NCBI RefSeq assembly: GCF_002160895.1 | Contig: NZ_NFLL01000002.1 | Span: 1-64,000, forward strand | Direction of reading: 5' to 3' | DNA: 64,000 nt | From: Faecalibacterium sp. An122 | GTDB taxonomy: Bacteria > Bacillota > Clostridia > Oscillospirales > Ruminococcaceae | Part shown: one piece after another, positions 9,650-18,772 of the stretch | How the letters are laid out: every line of letters begins with the position of its first letter | Position numbering within the stretch: the first letter of the stretch is position 1 | Position numbers and translations under genes: made by a program | The notes under the pieces: generated by a model | Database searches by the model: none | What the model was told of the DNA's origin: nothing | What the model saw: the letters and a program-made list of their open reading frames with translations, nothing else

Positions 9650-10603
9650 TTACACGGCGGGCACATACCCCGCTTTTTCGATGCAGCGGACGCCGTCCTC
9701 GGTGGACAGCCAGTCATAGACCTGACGCTCGGGACTGTCGGCGGCGGCCGACGCCCGGATCACCGCATAGAAATCGTTGCACAGGGGGTACTCCTGGCTG
9801 GCGATGGTGTCGTTGGAGGGGGTCACGTCCTCCACGGCCAGCAGCCGCAGGCCCGGCTGGCTGTACATCTGCTCGATGTAGTAGTAGACCGAGAAGCCGA
9901 TGGCGTTGGCGCTGTTGTTGTAGGAGGCGATGCTGTCCACCAGGCCGCCCATGGAGGCAGGGGCCAGCTCGGTGGGGGCCTCCATCAGCTCGCCGTCCTG
10001 GATCAGCAGATTCTGGAACAGGGTCTGGCTGCCGCTGTCCTCTCCCCGCTGGAAGGCCACAATGGGGGTGTCGTCGCCGCCCACGTCCTTCCAGTTGGTG
10101 ATGTGGCCGGCATAGATCTCCCGCAGCTGGTCCTGGGTGAGGCTCTGGACCGGGTTGTCCTCGTTGACGATAAAGACCAGGGCGTCCCGGCCGATGGCCT
10201 TCTGTTCCAGCTGGGTGCCGGCCTGGGCGATTTCGTCCTTGACGTAGTCGGGGGCCTCGTAGACAATCAGGAGCTGGGCCAGATCGGAATCGTAGACCCC
10301 CATGTTCTCCCAGGCGTAGGCGGTGGTGCTGACCGAGATGGCGCTCTGGGCCTCGGTGAGGTCGGCGCCGGTGGTGTCGGCCATGATCTGGGCCATCAGG
10401 GGGATGCAGGCGGTGGAGCCGTCCACCCCGGGGAACTCCTCCGGGGTCAGGAAGGGCTCAGCCGGTGCGGCGCTGGATGCGGAATCCTCCGAGCTGGCGG
10501 AGGAAGAAGCCGGACTGCTGCACCCGGCCAGCAGGGCGGCGGCGGTGCCCAGACCCAGGGCGGTCAGAAAGCTGCGTCGGGAGATAGAAGCGGTACGAAA
10601 CAT
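9650..10603 (-). CDS. PstS-like phosphate-binding lipoprotein
   Basis: A 317-residue secreted lipoprotein. The N-terminus has a basic RRSF stretch, a hydrophobic segment and a lipobox LLAGC near residue 28, then a Ser/Ala-rich linker. The body has the PstS-type periplasmic-binding pattern: early DGSTACIPL, the middle LTQDQLREIYAGHITNW block, and a FQRGEDSGSQ phosphate-loop-like stretch. There is no pstC/A/B here, so it may be an orphan binding protein or a sensor. It sits 18 bases after the lipoprotein gene 10621-12138 and is probably co-transcribed with it. Family is clear; ligand is inferred. Confidence 0.85.
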   Translation of the reverse strand: MFRTASISRRSFLTALGLGTAAALLAGCSSPASSSASSEDSASSAAPAEPFLTPEEFPGVDGSTACIPLMAQIMADTTGADLTEAQSAISVSTTAYAWENMGVYDSDLAQLLIVYEAPDYVKDEIAQAGTQLEQKAIGRDALVFIVNEDNPVQSLTQDQLREIYAGHITNWKDVGGDDTPIVAFQRGEDSGSQTLFQNLLIQDGELMEAPTELAPASMGGLVDSIASYNNSANAIGFSVYYYIEQMYSQPGLRLLAVEDVTPSNDTIASQEYPLCNDFYAVIRASAAADSPERQVYDWLSTEDGVRCIEKAGYVPAV

Positions 10604-10620
10604 AAAAATGCCTCCTTAAA

Positions 10621-12138
10621 TTACCAATAGTAGTGCCCGTCGTCGTCCGACAGGGAGGAAAAGACGCTTTCGGAGTAGACCCAGGCCCCGGTGTAATCCA
10701 TAAAGCCCCGCTCAAAACCCCGCCGCGCCGGGAAAATCCCGTCGGGCAGTTCGTAGACGGTGGGGGAGACCACGTCGGCCAGGCCGCTGAGAAGGATGTT
10801 CCCATGGCTGTCCACTACGTTGTAAAGGGTGCTGTTGCCCAGGCCGGTGTAGGCGGCCTGATAGAGGGGGCCGCTGGGACCGTCGGTCAGGTAGAGCAGA
10901 CGGTCATAGGTCATGCCGGGGTCGGTGGAGGTGTCGTACAGCAGGCCGGATGCGTCGTAAATCTGATAGGCCACCGACTGATAGTCCTCCGACTCCAGGG
11001 ACAGCAGGATGTAGCCGTCCTCAAAGCTGTAGATGGAGGCCTGTGCCGCGCCGTGGAGCTCGGGGACCAGAATGGTCTGGGAGCCGTCCTCGCCGCAGAT
11101 CAGCAGGCTGCCGTCCTCCAGCAGGAAAACGGCGCTCTCCCCGTCCAGATCGTAGGACAGAGAGCTGAGCAGGGGCAGGGCCGAACCGTCGGCCAGGTAG
11201 AGGATGCTGCCGCCGTCGCCGTCCGACACCAGCGCCATGTCCGGGCTCCAGTAGGAGCAGGGGGTGTCATAGAAGGCCAGGGGAGCGGGGTCGTCCAGGG
11301 TGCGCACCACATACTGGCCGTCCGCCTGCTGGTAGCAGAGCATCTCCTCCCCGCAGAAACTGAAGAACCGGGGGATGTACTCCTGGGTGGCGGGGTTGTA
11401 GAAGCTGGTGGTCCATTCCTCGGCGGATGCGTCGTAAATCTGAATGCCCACATAGCCGGTCTCGCCCTCGAAGCCGTAGGCCTGGAAGGCATAGGCGTTG
11501 TCCACCCGCAGCAGTTCCTCCCCGTCCAGGGTCATCACCTGCACCGAGGAGCTCTCCATGTCGGCCCGCTGGGGGTCGGAGGTGACGGTCAGCACCACCT
11601 GGTCCTCGTTGGTGGGGATGCAGCTGGTGGTGTTGGCGGGCAGGGGGATTTCTTCGCCGTCGGTCAGGTCCACCAGACGGCAGCCGGTTTCGCCGTTGGG
11701 CCCGGCGTCCACCCGGCGGGGGCCCGGCTCCAGGGCCAGCAGGTCATCGGACAGGGCCGCCCGCCACTCGCCGTCCTCCGACCAGAGCAGTTCGCCCTCG
11801 TCGTCGTATACGGCGGTGTACCAGCCGTCGGGGCCGTTGCCGCCCTTCTGCCAGCCCACCGGATGGCCGGTGTCGGGGCTGCTCAGAAGGCGGATGTCCT
11901 CAGAGGGCGCGCCTTTGTACAGTACCTGGTCGCCCCGCAGCAGGGTGCCGCCGCCGGTGCTGTTGGCACTGTATAAAAACCGGAGGGTGTCGTCCTCAAT
12001 GGTCACCACCGGCCGGGGGCCGGCGGGTTCTTCCTCCACCATCTGGGAGGATTCGTTCAGGGGGGCCAGCGGAGCGCAGCCGGCCAGGGTGGCAGCCAGC
12101 GCCAGGCATGCCATGGGAACAATGTATTTTTTGCGCAT
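10621..12138 (-). CDS. Hypothetical lipoprotein, propeller-like repeats
   Basis: I do not recognise a named family. It is a 505-residue lipoprotein: signal peptide, lipobox LAGC at about residues 18-21, then an acidic, Trp/Tyr-rich body built from repeated short strands of the type 'LLYDTS / YDASG / DxDGxxxLY', suggesting a beta-propeller or WG-repeat fold on the outer face of the membrane. It is first in a two-gene unit with the PstS-like lipoprotein 18 bases downstream, so a joint role in ligand capture or display is possible. No catalytic motif was seen. Confidence 0.75.
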   Translation of the reverse strand: MRKKYIVPMACLALAATLAGCAPLAPLNESSQMVEEEPAGPRPVVTIEDDTLRFLYSANSTGGGTLLRGDQVLYKGAPSEDIRLLSSPDTGHPVGWQKGGNGPDGWYTAVYDDEGELLWSEDGEWRAALSDDLLALEPGPRRVDAGPNGETGCRLVDLTDGEEIPLPANTTSCIPTNEDQVVLTVTSDPQRADMESSSVQVMTLDGEELLRVDNAYAFQAYGFEGETGYVGIQIYDASAEEWTTSFYNPATQEYIPRFFSFCGEEMLCYQQADGQYVVRTLDDPAPLAFYDTPCSYWSPDMALVSDGDGGSILYLADGSALPLLSSLSYDLDGESAVFLLEDGSLLICGEDGSQTILVPELHGAAQASIYSFEDGYILLSLESEDYQSVAYQIYDASGLLYDTSTDPGMTYDRLLYLTDGPSGPLYQAAYTGLGNSTLYNVVDSHGNILLSGLADVVSPTVYELPDGIFPARRGFERGFMDYTGAWVYSESVFSSLSDDDGHYYW

Positions 12139-12338: not shown

Positions 12339-12772
12339 TCAGCCCTTTTTCCAGTTCTGGAAGTCGCTGTGGACCTGCAGACGGCTGACGGCGCGGGCCA
12401 GGCTGTACTGTGCGATGCGGTACTCCTGAATGCTGCGCTTCTGGAGCAGCGCTTCCTTGGCCTCGTCGGCGGCCCGGCGGGCGCGGTTGGCGTCGATCTC
12501 CTCGGGGCGCTCGGCGGTATCCACCAGCACCAGCACGTCGTTGTTCTCCACCTTGATCAGGCCGGAGGAAACGGCGGCGATCTTCTCAACGCCGGCGTCG
12601 GGGCCCTCGGAGGGGCGGTAGTGCAGCTCACCGGGGAAGACGGCCGAAATCATGTTGGAGTGGTGCGCCTGGACGCCGAAGGAGCCGTCCGGGCTGGGGA
12701 CGATGAGGTTTTCGCACTCACCCTCAAAGAACAGGTCGTCCGCCGCCAGGATGCGCAGGTGGAAGGTGTTCA

Positions 12773-12773
<1 letters not shown>
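12339..12773 (-). CDS. atpC: F1 ATP synthase subunit epsilon
   Basis: A 144-residue central-stalk subunit that couples rotation to catalysis and can inhibit ATP hydrolysis. The N-terminal beta-sandwich (MNTFHLRILAADDLFFEGE, PDGSFGVQAHHSN) and the C-terminal helical hairpin with an AxRAxxADEAKEAL pattern are both present at normal length. Its start overlaps the atpD stop by one base, so translation is coupled. It is the last gene of the operon, with a strong terminator following. Confidence 0.95.
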
Positions 12774-15096
<2,323 letters not shown>

Positions 15097-15097
15097 G

Positions 15098-16861
15098 TCA
15101 CTGCCCCTTCTTCTGATAGCCGGCCACGAAGGTGCGGGCCAGGTCGATGATCTGCTGGCGGTCGTCGTCGGACAGCAGGCCGGTGGAGTCGATCCGCTGG
15201 CACAGGGCTGCGTCCTGCTCCTCGAACCAGGCCAGCATCTCATGCTGGGCGTCGCTGATCTTCTCGGCGGGGATGGACTCCATGGTGTGGTTCAGAGCGG
15301 CCACCAGGGTGATGACCTGCTCGTGCTGGGTCAGCGGGTGATACTGCTTCTGGCGCAGCAGCCGCATCAGGCCCTGGCCGTAGGTCAGCTGGCGCTTGGT
15401 GGTCTCGTCCAGGTCGCTGGAGAACTGGGTAAAGACCTCCATCTCGCGGTACTGGGCCAGATCCAGACGCATGGCGCCGGCGGCCTTTTTCATGGCCTTG
15501 GTCTGGGCGTCGCCGCCCACACGGGACACCGACAGGCCCACGTTGACGGCGGGGCGCTGGCCGGCGAAGAACAGGTTGCTCTCCAGGAACAGCTGGCCGT
15601 CGGTGATGGAGATGACGTTGGTGGGGATATAGGCGGAGACGTCGCCGGCCTGGGTCTCGATGATGGGCAGGGCGGTCATGCTGCCGCCGCCCATGTCGTC
15701 GGACAGGTGGGCCGAACGCTCCAGCAGACGGCTGTGGAGGTAGAAGACGTCGCCGGGGTATGCCTCACGGCCGGGGCTGCGCTCCAGCAGCAGGGACAGG
15801 GCGCGGTAGGCGATGGCGTGCTTGGACAGGTCGTCGTAGACGATCAGCACGTCCCGGCCCTGGTGCATGAAGTACTCGCCCAGGCTGCAGCCGGCGTAAG
15901 GTGCGATGTACTGCAGGGAGGCGGAGTCGCTGGCCGAGGCGTTGACCACGATGCAGTAGTCCATGGCGCCGCGGCGGCGGAGGTTCTCGGTCAGCAGGGC
16001 CACCGAACTGGCCTTCTGGCCGATGGCCACGTAGATGCAGACCACGTTCTTGCCCTTCTGGTTCAGGATGGTGTCCAGAGCCACAGCGGTCTTGCCGGTC
16101 TGGCGGTCGCCGATGATCAGTTCGCGCTGGCCGCGGCCGATGGGGAACAGGGCGTCGATGGCCAGCAGGCCGGTCTCCATGGGCTGGTTGACGGGCTGGC
16201 GATGGATGATGCCGGGAGCCGGCCGCTCAATGGGATAGTAGGCGTCGGCCTGAATCTCCTGGCCGCCGTCGATGGGGTTGCCCAGGGCATCCACCACGCG
16301 GCCCAGGAAGGCGTCGCCCACCGGCATGCCGGCCACTTTGCCGGTGCGGCGGACCGGGTCGCCGGCCTCGATGCCGCTGCTGTCGCCGAACAGGACGCAG
16401 CACAGCTCATCGGGGCGCAGCTCCTGGACCATGCCGCGGATGCCGTTGGTGAAGTCCAGGACTTCGCCGTAGACGGCGTCCTGCAGGCCCGAAATGGTGG
16501 CGATGTCATCGCCCACCGTCAGCACGGTGCCGATCTCCTCGGGCTTGGTGCTGGGGGCCCAGTCCACAACGGTCTGGCGCATCAGGGGCAGCAGGTTGTC
16601 CTGGCGGACATCCAGTGCGTCGATCTTGCGGCGCAGCTGCTCCATGCGGCCCTTCAGGCTCCAGTCGTAGACGTCGGAGCCCACCTCCAGGCGGAAGCCG
16701 CCCTTCAGGTTGGCGGCCTTTTTCCAGGTGAGGGTTACGGTGCGGTCGGGGTAGGTGCGGGCCAGAAAATCCTCAAACCGCTGGCGCTGCTCCTCAGTAG
16801 GGGCCTCGGGGCTGTACAGAAAAGCGGCGGTGGCTGCTTCAGGCTTTTTCATGTTGCTCAT
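15098..16861 (-). CDS. atpA: F1 ATP synthase alpha subunit fused to the C-terminal half of delta
   Basis: A 587-residue protein. From about residue 84 it is a normal alpha subunit: P-loop GDRQTGKT at 251-258 (about 80 residues later than in ordinary alpha chains) and the arginine-finger block SVSRVGGDAQ. Residues 13-80 are not alpha. They match the C-terminal domain of subunit delta: TEEQRQRFEDFLARTY, then LKGGFRLEVGSDVYDWSLKGRMEQL, the region that in delta binds the b stalk. No separate atpH is present between atpF and atpG or elsewhere in the window. An internal ATG (Met73), with AAGGG five bases upstream, would give a 515-residue alpha of ordinary size. Overlap with atpF is 23 bases. Confidence 0.93.
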   Translation of the reverse strand: MSNMKKPEAATAAFLYSPEAPTEEQRQRFEDFLARTYPDRTVTLTWKKAANLKGGFRLEVGSDVYDWSLKGRMEQLRRKIDALDVRQDNLLPLMRQTVVDWAPSTKPEEIGTVLTVGDDIATISGLQDAVYGEVLDFTNGIRGMVQELRPDELCCVLFGDSSGIEAGDPVRRTGKVAGMPVGDAFLGRVVDALGNPIDGGQEIQADAYYPIERPAPGIIHRQPVNQPMETGLLAIDALFPIGRGQRELIIGDRQTGKTAVALDTILNQKGKNVVCIYVAIGQKASSVALLTENLRRRGAMDYCIVVNASASDSASLQYIAPYAGCSLGEYFMHQGRDVLIVYDDLSKHAIAYRALSLLLERSPGREAYPGDVFYLHSRLLERSAHLSDDMGGGSMTALPIIETQAGDVSAYIPTNVISITDGQLFLESNLFFAGQRPAVNVGLSVSRVGGDAQTKAMKKAAGAMRLDLAQYREMEVFTQFSSDLDETTKRQLTYGQGLMRLLRQKQYHPLTQHEQVITLVAALNHTMESIPAEKISDAQHEMLAWFEEQDAALCQRIDSTGLLSDDDRQQIIDLARTFVAGYQKKGQ

Positions 16862-17345
16862 TCTGTTTCCCTTCCTCTGCCAGGTTCAAAAATTCGTCGA
16901 AGGCGTCTTTGCTGGACTGCAGGGTCAGCTTGGCAGCGGCAGCCATGGCCAGCTCCTTGATTTCCTTCTGGGAATCGGCCACGGCCTTGGTGCGGATGCT
17001 CTCGGCGGCCTTCTGGGCGCCGGCGATGATCTGGTCGGCCTGCTCCTGGGCGCGGTTCAGCTGCTGCTGGGCGGCATCCTGGGCGATCTTCTGGCTCTCG
17101 GCGCGGCGCTGGCGCAGCTCCTCGTCCAGCTTGCTCAGCTGAGCCTGATGCTCGGCCTCCAGCTTCTCAGCGGCGGCCAGCTTGTCGGCGGCAGCCTTGT
17201 CCATCTCGGCATAGTGGGCGGTGCGCTGATCCATGAATTTCTTGATGGGGTTGTACAGGATGAAGTACAGACCGCCCACCAGGATCACGAAGTTCAGCAT
17301 GTGCAGAAAAATCTGCTGCAGATTGATATTCAGAGGGAGATTCAT
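16839..17345 (-). CDS. atpF: F0 ATP synthase subunit b
   Basis: A 168-residue peripheral-stalk subunit. One N-terminal membrane span (about residues 12-32, LHMLNFVILVGGLYFILYNP) is followed by a long charged Ala/Glu/Gln-rich helix suited to a right-handed coiled-coil dimer. There is no extra delta-like domain at either end, so the missing N-terminal half of delta is not hidden here. The gene ends inside the start of atpA. Confidence 0.95.
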   Translation of the reverse strand: MNLPLNINLQQIFLHMLNFVILVGGLYFILYNPIKKFMDQRTAHYAEMDKAAADKLAAAEKLEAEHQAQLSKLDEELRQRRAESQKIAQDAAQQQLNRAQEQADQIIAGAQKAAESIRTKAVADSQKEIKELAMAAAAKLTLQSSKDAFDEFLNLAEEGKQNEQHEKA

Positions 17346-17362: not shown

Positions 17363-17758
17363 TTACAGAACAAAGATAATCAGGATAACGACCAGCAGGG
17401 CGTAGATGATGGCGGTCTCGATAAAGACCAGGGTCAGCATCATAGAAGTGCGGATCTTGCCCTCGGCCTCGGGCTGGCGTGCGATGGCCTCAGAGGACTT
17501 GGCGCCCAGAACGCCCATGGCGACAGCGCCGCCGGCAGCAGCCAGGCCCACGGCGATGGCGGAAGCGAAAGCCTTGGCGGCGGTGGTGGAGGTGGAAGAA
17601 TCGGCAGCCTCGGCCTCGGTCTCAGCCTGAGCGGACTGGGTGGTGGCAGGCTCGCTGGAAGCGGGCTCGTCGGCGAAAGCGGGGGCAGCCATGGTCACGA
17701 CCATAGCCAGCATGACCAGCAGGACGGAAAGGACTTTCTTGATGTTCATCGTCTTCAT
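17363..17758 (-). CDS. atpE: F0 ATP synthase subunit c with N-terminal signal and linker
   Basis: A 131-residue c-ring subunit, against the usual 70-90. The start at 17758 follows AGGAGG. Residues 1-27 look like a signal peptide with an APAFA cleavage site, followed by a Ser/Thr/Ala/Glu-rich linker to about residue 58, then two helices with the ARQPEA polar loop. The ion-binding Glu is in FIETAIIY. A Tyr five residues later resembles Na+-type rings, but the helix-1 position usually Gln in Na+ rings is Met (GGAVAMG), so the coupling ion is uncertain and H+ is slightly favoured. The helix-1 glycine motif is partly replaced by Ala. Confidence 0.92.
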   Translation of the reverse strand: MKTMNIKKVLSVLLVMLAMVVTMAAPAFADEPASSEPATTQSAQAETEAEAADSSTSTTAAKAFASAIAVGLAAAGGAVAMGVLGAKSSEAIARQPEAEGKIRTSMMLTLVFIETAIIYALLVVILIIFVL

Positions 17759-17795
17759 AGTAGTGATAACCTCCTGAATTGGGGACAGCGATGGA

Positions 17796-18638
17796 TCAGG
17801 CCGCAAGGGCGTCGCTGTTCTTTTTGTTTTTCTTGACTTTGGGCTGGACCGGCTCGGACACCTCGCCGTAATACAGGGCCACCAGCATGGTCAGCACGTA
17901 GCTCTGGATCAGGGAGTGGAGCATGGTGAACATGACGCCCACGATCACCGGCAGCACATAGCTGAGGGTGATATAGTAGTAGACCAGCTCGGTGACCAGC
18001 AGGCCGCTGAGCAGAGCGCCGAACAGTCGGAAGCTCATGGAGATGGGGAGCGAGAACTCCTTGAGGGTGCGGCCCACGCCGCGGATGCCCACGGCGCTCA
18101 CGCCGCCCGACATAATGAACAGGTAGGACAGCACGCCCATGGCGATGGCGGCGTTGACGTCCGACAGGGGGGCCGGCAGGGCCAGCGAGTGGCCCGCAGT
18201 GGTCACCACCTGGACGCCCAGCAGCTCAAACAGGGTGCTGACAAAGATATAGGTGCCCGCACCGAAGAGGTAGGGGCCCAGCACCTTGTTGTTGTGAGGG
18301 CTGTTCTTCTCGGCCATCCCGCGGAAGGTATCCACCCACAGTTCCAGCAGCATCTGCAGCTTGCCGGGAACCTCCGTGAAATGGGGCACTGCGAAGATCC
18401 GCAGGCAGACAGCCAGCACCAGCAGCGCGGCCGTCACCACATAGGCCGAGATCAGGCCGGGGTTGACGTCCATGATCCCGAAAAGGCTCACCTGGCCGGT
18501 CTCGTGCAGCACAGCGTCCCGCATCACTGCCTTGACGCTCTCGCTCTCTCCGCCGGGGGTCCCGGTGAGGACAGAGGCGACTGCCAGCACCACGATCAGC
18601 ACGAGCCACAGGATAAGACTCCGCTTATTCTGTTTCAT
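17796..18638 (-). CDS. atpB: F0 ATP synthase subunit a
   Basis: A 280-residue stator channel subunit with about six spans. The essential Arg is in SMSFRLFGALLSGLLV, and the C-terminal span carries a Gln in HSLIQSYVLTM. The N-terminal region between spans one and two includes an extracytoplasmic loop. The start at 18638 (MKQNKRS) has AAAGGAG thirteen bases upstream; a TTG nine codons earlier is possible. It is the first gene of the operon; atpI is absent. Length is slightly longer than typical owing to a basic C-terminal tail. Confidence 0.95.
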   Translation of the reverse strand: MKQNKRSLILWLVLIVVLAVASVLTGTPGGESESVKAVMRDAVLHETGQVSLFGIMDVNPGLISAYVVTAALLVLAVCLRIFAVPHFTEVPGKLQMLLELWVDTFRGMAEKNSPHNNKVLGPYLFGAGTYIFVSTLFELLGVQVVTTAGHSLALPAPLSDVNAAIAMGVLSYLFIMSGGVSAVGIRGVGRTLKEFSLPISMSFRLFGALLSGLLVTELVYYYITLSYVLPVIVGVMFTMLHSLIQSYVLTMLVALYYGEVSEPVQPKVKKNKKNSDALAA

Positions 18639-18772
18639 GGTTTTGGAAAGACTCCTTTCATCCAACGATATTCAACCTGCCTGCCCGGCCGCCCCGGAGG
18701 GGGATTTGCCGGGCTTCGACCGCCGCCTCCCCGGAGGAAGCGGTTGTCAAATTGCAATTTTGGGTCGAGCGT
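18639..18772 (-). promoter_or_regulatory. 5' leader of the ATP synthase operon
   Basis: About 130 bases of leader between the promoter and atpB, with two GC-rich inverted repeats (CCCCGGAGGGG near 18695 and CCTCCCCGGAGG near 18727). No T-run follows, so no terminator; they may affect messenger stability. Confidence 0.4.

Follow-up and report, generated by a model that had tools for sequence, protein, structure and literature searches.

If one half of the delta subunit of an ATP synthase is joined to alpha, of which each enzyme has three, how many peripheral stalks does the enzyme carry? The question is raised by an operon of Faecalibacterium sp. An122, a member of a common gut genus, located in a stretch of 64,000 nucleotides that was analysed as a whole and is called the window hereafter. 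An earlier reading of the sequence (the original prediction) had proposed that the N-terminus of this alpha is the C-terminal half of delta, that no free delta subunit exists and that the fusion ties b directly to alpha.

The fused alpha subunit and its operon

The operon lies on the minus strand in the order a, c, b, fused alpha, gamma, beta and epsilon, and the F-type set was recognised with Pfam and NCBIfam models. The atpA gene (15098-16861, minus strand), an open reading frame of 587 aa, was analysed with Pfam and NCBIfam models, PDB searches, AlphaFold2 and Foldseek. In an HMM search, residues 12-79 aligned with positions 104-171/172 of the OSCP/delta profile PF00213 (E 1.6e-8 for the whole protein), which bears out the assignment of residues 13-80 to the delta C-terminal domain. 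The scores were 35.3 bits for whole alpha and 40.3 bits for residues 1-89 alone (E 4.7e-10), compared to a gathering score of 22.3. NCBIfam delta models also matched the fused alpha (best E 1.6e-7), all under their whole-protein cut-offs, as expected since the fused part is half a protein. We place the domain at residues 11-81 (16619..16831, minus strand), which form a block with a pLDDT of 82-90 in the AlphaFold2 model. The alpha model TIGR00962 begins at residue 86 (723.5 bits), and the alpha body, in which the nucleotide-binding and C-terminal domains were recognised, extends from this residue to the stop codon (15098..16606, minus strand). The N-terminal helix of alpha (residues 90-100, 16562..16594, minus strand) is retained behind the fused domain, as judged from the structural model and from conservation: across 42 sequences P92 is invariant, and L93 and P103 are nearly so.

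The first 106 residues of the fused alpha are 82% identical to those of F. gallinarum and 75% identical to those of Faecalibacterium sp. An121. In five out of five pairs with close relatives, dN/dS in the fused domain was below 1 (about 0.07-0.43), indicating that the frame is under selection, and the domain evolves faster than the alpha body. A pseudogene or an assembly error was ruled out by this purifying selection and by the presence of the domain in frame with alpha at 76 of 77 loci from named genomes, all 76 having the arrangement found in the window, delta C-terminal domain followed by alpha (deltaC-alpha); they include one locus with no start (L196), three in which the contig ends inside alpha (L132, L135, L175) and one with alpha split into two frames (L166). 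The one remaining locus, L204, is a delta-like gene on its own. A 662-aa open frame runs antisense to alpha (14972-16960, plus strand), probably as a consequence of G+C-rich codon usage.

The other subunits, all encoded on the minus strand, were assigned individually. Subunit a (atpB, 17796..18665; PF00119, E 7.6e-18) is a 289-aa open frame with TTG at its upstream end, and its true start may be further in; it contains RLFG, which we take to be the arginine motif; among the a subunits from fused-type loci, 106 of 107 have it. Subunit c (atpE, 17363..17806; PF00137 at residues 80-143 of 147, E 1.8e-14) carries a leader and an acidic linker before its two-helix hairpin, and its true start is probably an ATG further inside the listed frame. 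The leader resembles a signal peptide and ends with AFA ahead of the linker. By a hydropathy threshold, a hydrophobic c leader was found at 86 of 110 fused-type loci versus none of 22 canonical loci, and it is widespread in the clade of fused operons to which the window belongs. Subunit b (atpF, 16839..17345; PF00430, E 2.2e-13) has 168 aa, and the end of its gene overlaps the start of the fused alpha by 23 bases. Gamma (atpG, 14182..15096, with an ATG at 15096; PF00231, E 1.8e-86 when searched as 14182-15135), beta (atpD, 12773..14185, with a GTG start; PF00006, E 2.3e-72) and epsilon (atpC, 12339..12773; PF02823 and PF00401) complete the set. A LysR gene adjoins the operon; it was found beside five of six window-type stretches and, at more than 50% identity, beside none of ten stretches of another fused type of Faecalibacterium. 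Downstream of epsilon are two genes (9650-12138, minus strand) that presumably encode a PstS-like substrate-binding lipoprotein and another lipoprotein, of 505 aa. This second protein was found in three relatives, with an identity of only 39-55%.

No separate full-length delta was found in the window operon, the delta match being limited to profile positions 104-171 on alpha, and Pfam detected no OSCP domain on b at E-values up to 1, so that b is an ordinary one; on both points the original prediction held. Known enzymes with a rearranged delta were compared. The N-ATPase, an alternate F1Fo enzyme, likewise lacks a separate delta, and its b is longer (PMC5706428); TIGR03321, the model for N-ATPase b, aligns with the fused domain over its C-terminal end (positions 179-246, E 5.3e-4). 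However, b of the window has only 168 aa and the delta domain is on alpha, and identity with the N-ATPase was ruled out by scores below the model cut-offs, 629 against 750.5 bits for alpha (TIGR03324) and 37.7 against 224.7 bits for b (TIGR03321). Delta is joined to another stator subunit in mycobacteria too, as a b-delta protein (PDB 7jg5_d, 'ATP synthase subunit b-delta'); there the partner is b and the enzyme has one copy of the fusion, whereas here it is alpha, and a b-delta fusion was ruled out by the lack of an OSCP match in b noted above.

A canonical ATP synthase in the same genome

The genome, 99.91% complete, encodes a second ATP synthase. While the window is part of contig C12 (G000:C12), contig C27 carries a full a-c-b-delta-alpha-gamma-beta-epsilon operon (L038, G000:C27:14500-24945) with an intact delta of 179 aa (E 2.8e-40 in a whole-genome search). 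The claim that there is no free delta subunit thus failed at the level of the genome, where an intact delta of the atpH type exists; as this delta belongs to a different, complete operon, the claim is true of the window operon only. Besides the C27 delta, a search of the genome with PF00213 at E-values up to 10 for a free delta N-terminal domain gave one sub-threshold match (E 0.109, in an 809-aa frame). Neither further F-type pairs nor a V/A-type enzyme were detected, no alpha/beta-like match (E up to 1e-20) being obtained beyond the two F-type pairs. The delta N-terminal domain is absent from the window operon, yet a full delta is encoded on C27; fused-only relatives show no second delta.

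Both enzymes are frequently present together in the genus. Among 31 Faecalibacterium genomes (this one and 30 others), 19 carry both types, six the fused type alone and six the canonical type alone; in one of them (G017), two delta matches are pieces of a single broken canonical delta. Eighteen of the genomes reach a completeness of 95% or more; of these, 16 have both types, one has the fused type alone (G021, 99% complete) and one the canonical type alone (G027). Alpha and beta of the two operons lie far apart on the tree described below. Other Faecalibacterium genomes contain a second fused lineage (L050, L060 and others), with alphas of 603 or 594 aa, no c leader and without the neighbouring genes of the window; on the tree, where it is represented by one row, it is not the sister of the window type.

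The c subunits suggest that the two enzymes differ in their coupling ion. A Na+-type c was scored by Q or E at the ligand position of helix 1 together with E-S/T in helix 2, a pattern derived from PMC3692424, in which c of the Na+ enzyme of Fusobacterium nucleatum has two carboxylates and a Ser after the Glu. In the window c, M occupies the helix-1 position and helix 2 has ETA, which departs from the Na+-type pattern although T follows the Glu. The C27 c has E and ETT, close to the two-carboxylate pattern of F. nucleatum. At the 110 fused-type loci, c has M with ETA or ETV in 88 cases, M with EST in two, I in 16, D in one and Q with ESL in three, these last three showing a sodium-like pattern; at the 22 canonical loci, 13 have E with ETT, two others E, three Q and four I. 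From these residues, the window enzyme would be expected to use H+ and the C27 enzyme Na+.

Fused, separate and tandem forms of delta in related genomes

The fused type extends beyond the genus. Among 295 genomes drawn from the order, at least 39 (counted by eye) encode the domain and alpha in a single uninterrupted frame of 579-706 aa (E up to 1e-8); at least three of them (G049, G608, G682) are near-full delta fusions. A free delta was found in none of the 110 stretches classed as deltaC-alpha, a class that by definition omits frames matching the profile of the delta N-terminal domain and that includes nine operons counted twice; a, c, b, alpha, gamma and beta occur together in 103 of them. 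Twenty-two genomes selected for odd delta arrangements were scored for alpha genes (E up to 1e-60). A single alpha gene was present in 20, two being found in G554 and G395. Ten of these single-alpha genomes have deltaC-alpha (frames of 579-622 aa, and one of 668 aa), seven a triple fusion of b, delta C-terminal domain and alpha (b-deltaC-alpha), one a near-full delta-alpha and two a separate gene for the delta C-terminal domain; alpha is thus fused in 18 of the 20, and a fused alpha that is the only alpha gene indicates that the architecture suffices alone. No second PF00213 match (E up to 0.001) was found in 11 single-alpha genomes lacking the delta N-terminal domain (G021, G075, G088, G089, G090, G091, G092, G099, G100, G110 and G118), and none (E up to 0.01) was among the matches listed for G140, G184 and G286.

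The triple fusion occurs in 10 of the 295 genomes, in three families, and is 41-64% identical to the query. Its frame has 737-784 aa in nine genomes, and the tenth, of 521 aa, runs off the contig by its coordinates. In all eight operons examined (L041, L042, L224-L229), a single frame runs from a membrane helix at the N-terminus through the delta C-terminal domain to alpha, and a short b is encoded separately; in seven of these eight genomes the triple fusion is the only alpha. With three alphas per enzyme, such a sole alpha would bring three membrane-anchored stalk strands, unless the chains are cut. Other forms were found as well: near-full delta-alpha fusions (L054, L205, L232, L233); separate genes of about 72-77 aa for the delta C-terminal domain, located between b and alpha (L039, L040, L234); a tandem form, in which a pair of delta C-terminal domains precedes alpha and the linker helix is likewise doubled (L230:5023-7065, plus strand); and a free delta (frame of 261 aa) whose N-terminal domain is accompanied by two C-terminal domains in tandem (L231:4902-5684, minus strand).

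A first tree used alphas of at least 450 aa and, with clustering at 85%, retained 67 of 141 rows; it contained a stray on a very long branch (L204). The alpha and beta tree used here has 48 rows, of which three are without beta; it omits 19 of the 67, namely four stray, cut or partial sequences and 15 close relatives removed by thinning, and it is unrooted. The window enzyme falls inside a set of 21 rows of fused alphas with a support of 100/100. The minimum number of changes on this tree is five for the presence of the delta N-terminal domain and four for fusion, gain and loss being indistinguishable. One locus (L053) was scored as having the C-terminal domain only, but its delta frame has 161 aa and the N-terminal part is probably too diverged for the profile, which misses diverged domains; relabelling it lowers the count for the N-terminal domain from five to four, by inspection. 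These minimum counts point to repeated evolution.

Constraints on the number of peripheral stalks

An enzyme of the same design has been built. Ueno et al. 2025 (PMC12229609; PDB 9jc1) engineered a Bacillus PS3 FoF1 in which delta without its N-terminal domain is fused to alpha (deltaDeltaN-alpha); it is described as having up to three peripheral stalks, with extra a subunits and an H+/ATP ratio about doubled. Stalks numbered about two on average as estimated from gels. Particles with three stalks were extremely rare in cryo-EM, which the authors attribute to stalk loss during sample preparation, and proton-pump activity was lower. The match with the window protein is close. The sequence of 9jc1_I aligns to residues 13-149 through the junction with a three-residue difference, it alone spans the junction among the 50 PDB sequences matching the first 154 residues (E up to 0.001), and it is second by E-value in a PDB search with the whole protein. 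The AlphaFold2 model of the fused alpha (42 sequences, mean pLDDT 75) predicts a delta domain of six elements (strand-helix-strand-strand-strand-helix) followed by the alpha helix 90-100. In Foldseek, chains I, K and J of 9jc1 ranked 1-3 with 565-567 aligned columns, versus at most 507 for the other 47 matches listed; the TM-scores by query were modest (0.68-0.71), parts of the nucleotide-binding domain having a pLDDT under 50.

Both proteins thus have the delta C-terminal domain continuous with the alpha N-terminus, no delta N-terminal domain and a junction placed within three residues. They differ in that the PS3 enzyme was made by design, is otherwise single-stalk and has an epsilon without its C-terminal domain (PMC12229609). 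The window enzyme, by contrast, occurs naturally, carries a leader on its c subunit and comes from a genome that also holds a canonical enzyme. The same source names Acidaminococcus fermentans as a natural delta-alpha fusion without the delta N-terminal domain (UniProt G4Q3K6, A0A1I2C5T3) and predicts multiple stalks; the window enzyme resembles it as described, delta being fused to alpha and its N-terminal domain missing. The plain fusion has therefore been noted before. The available part of that account mentions no second operon, c leader, b-deltaC-alpha or tandem domains. In the open-licence literature, judged in the larger result sets by the best-ranked titles, no other work on this architecture was met, nor were the Faecalibacterium fusion beside a sodium-type enzyme, the c leader, the repeated origins, or the b-deltaC-alpha and tandem forms; titles on the Faecalibacterium ATP synthase yielded nothing relevant.

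Taken with the PS3 enzyme, the sequence data favour the following reading, to which we give a probability of roughly 0.6: in the second F1Fo ATP synthase, encoded in the window, each alpha offers a dock for a b2 dimer, and the enzyme most likely has two or three stalks, each with its own a subunit. Delta has here kept just its C-terminal domain, the half that binds b, now fused to the alpha N-terminus; b would then attach directly to alpha, in support of the tie between the two that had been proposed. Each of the three alphas in the enzyme would then be a docking site, giving three sites, and more than one stalk would bind, each bringing an a subunit; this would move more ions per ATP and allow function at a low ion-motive force. 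Three delta halves per enzyme, a consequence already drawn in the original prediction, do follow unless something removes them, and by analogy they need not be a problem, because the same design in PS3 gave up to three peripheral stalks (PMC12229609). By the same analogy, we infer that the natural enzyme acts like the engineered one, with extra stalks, extra a subunits and a raised H+/ATP ratio. Against this reading, the single a and b genes say nothing of copy number and the docking sites could stay empty. The near-full delta-alpha fusions, moreover, are at odds with an account based solely on the removal of a blocker.

The most serious competitor, which we regard as possible but clearly less probable, is an enzyme with one stalk, in which only one of the three fused domains binds b2, the other two being left empty or capping the crown; the fusion would then do no more than save a separate delta and strengthen the joint. 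The window operon does have one a and one b gene, and the engineered enzyme averaged about two stalks by gels, with triple-stalk particles rare in cryo-EM. However, symmetry makes the three docking sites equivalent, the operon lacks the presumed blocker, every alpha is membrane-anchored in the b-deltaC-alpha relatives, and the PS3 version takes extra stalks with no changes in a or b described in the part of PMC12229609 available.

That an internal start or proteolysis supplies ordinary alpha, leaving one alpha per enzyme with the delta domain, appears improbable. The start suggested for this purpose, Met73 with a weak AAGGG, did not stand up, the residue not being conserved beyond part of the genus: it is M in most window-type Faecalibacterium, L/V in two, L/R in other relatives and L in the consensus of 42 sequences. 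A Shine-Dalgarno-like stretch of at least four bases precedes some internal start codon at 52 of 110 loci, at varying places, compared to 95 of 110 for the real start region, both counts being the best of several candidate codons. Met73 was rejected on these two grounds. Several Faecalibacterium species have a Met94 preceded by a Shine-Dalgarno-like stretch of 4-6 bases with loose spacing, but this residue too is unconserved across other relatives, and a start there would truncate the N-terminal helix of alpha (residues 90-100). Nor did the internal start codons of two b-deltaC-alpha genes, when scanned, share a site with a strong ribosome-binding stretch. Least likely of all is a hybrid or regulated assembly in which the fused alpha joins delta or plain alpha of the second ATP synthase. 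The C27 operon could lend either to mixed complexes in Faecalibacterium, given the frequent presence of both operons (19 of 31 genomes, 16 of the 18 most complete); on the other hand, the fused operon lacks nothing but the delta N-terminal domain, G021 and other genomes carry the fused alpha alone, and alpha and beta of the two operons are distant on the tree.

For Faecalibacterium, the best reading is that a multi-stalk enzyme of the proton type accompanies a single-stalk one of the sodium type, with both stalk number and ion predicted. Whether this can be generalised is, in our estimate, an even call: natural two- or three-stalk ATP synthases would exist and would have arisen several times in gut Clostridia, in the deltaC-alpha, separate deltaC, tandem and b-deltaC-alpha forms, with two gears in one Faecalibacterium cell: an enzyme with one stalk that uses Na+, and another with several stalks that uses H+ and moves more ions per ATP. 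The two enzyme types in one cell provide a built-in control, and b-deltaC-alpha makes stalk number a plain mass-ratio measurement. If true, the multi-stalk enzyme may be a lower-gear motor and would show how a fermenter could use a very small ion gradient.
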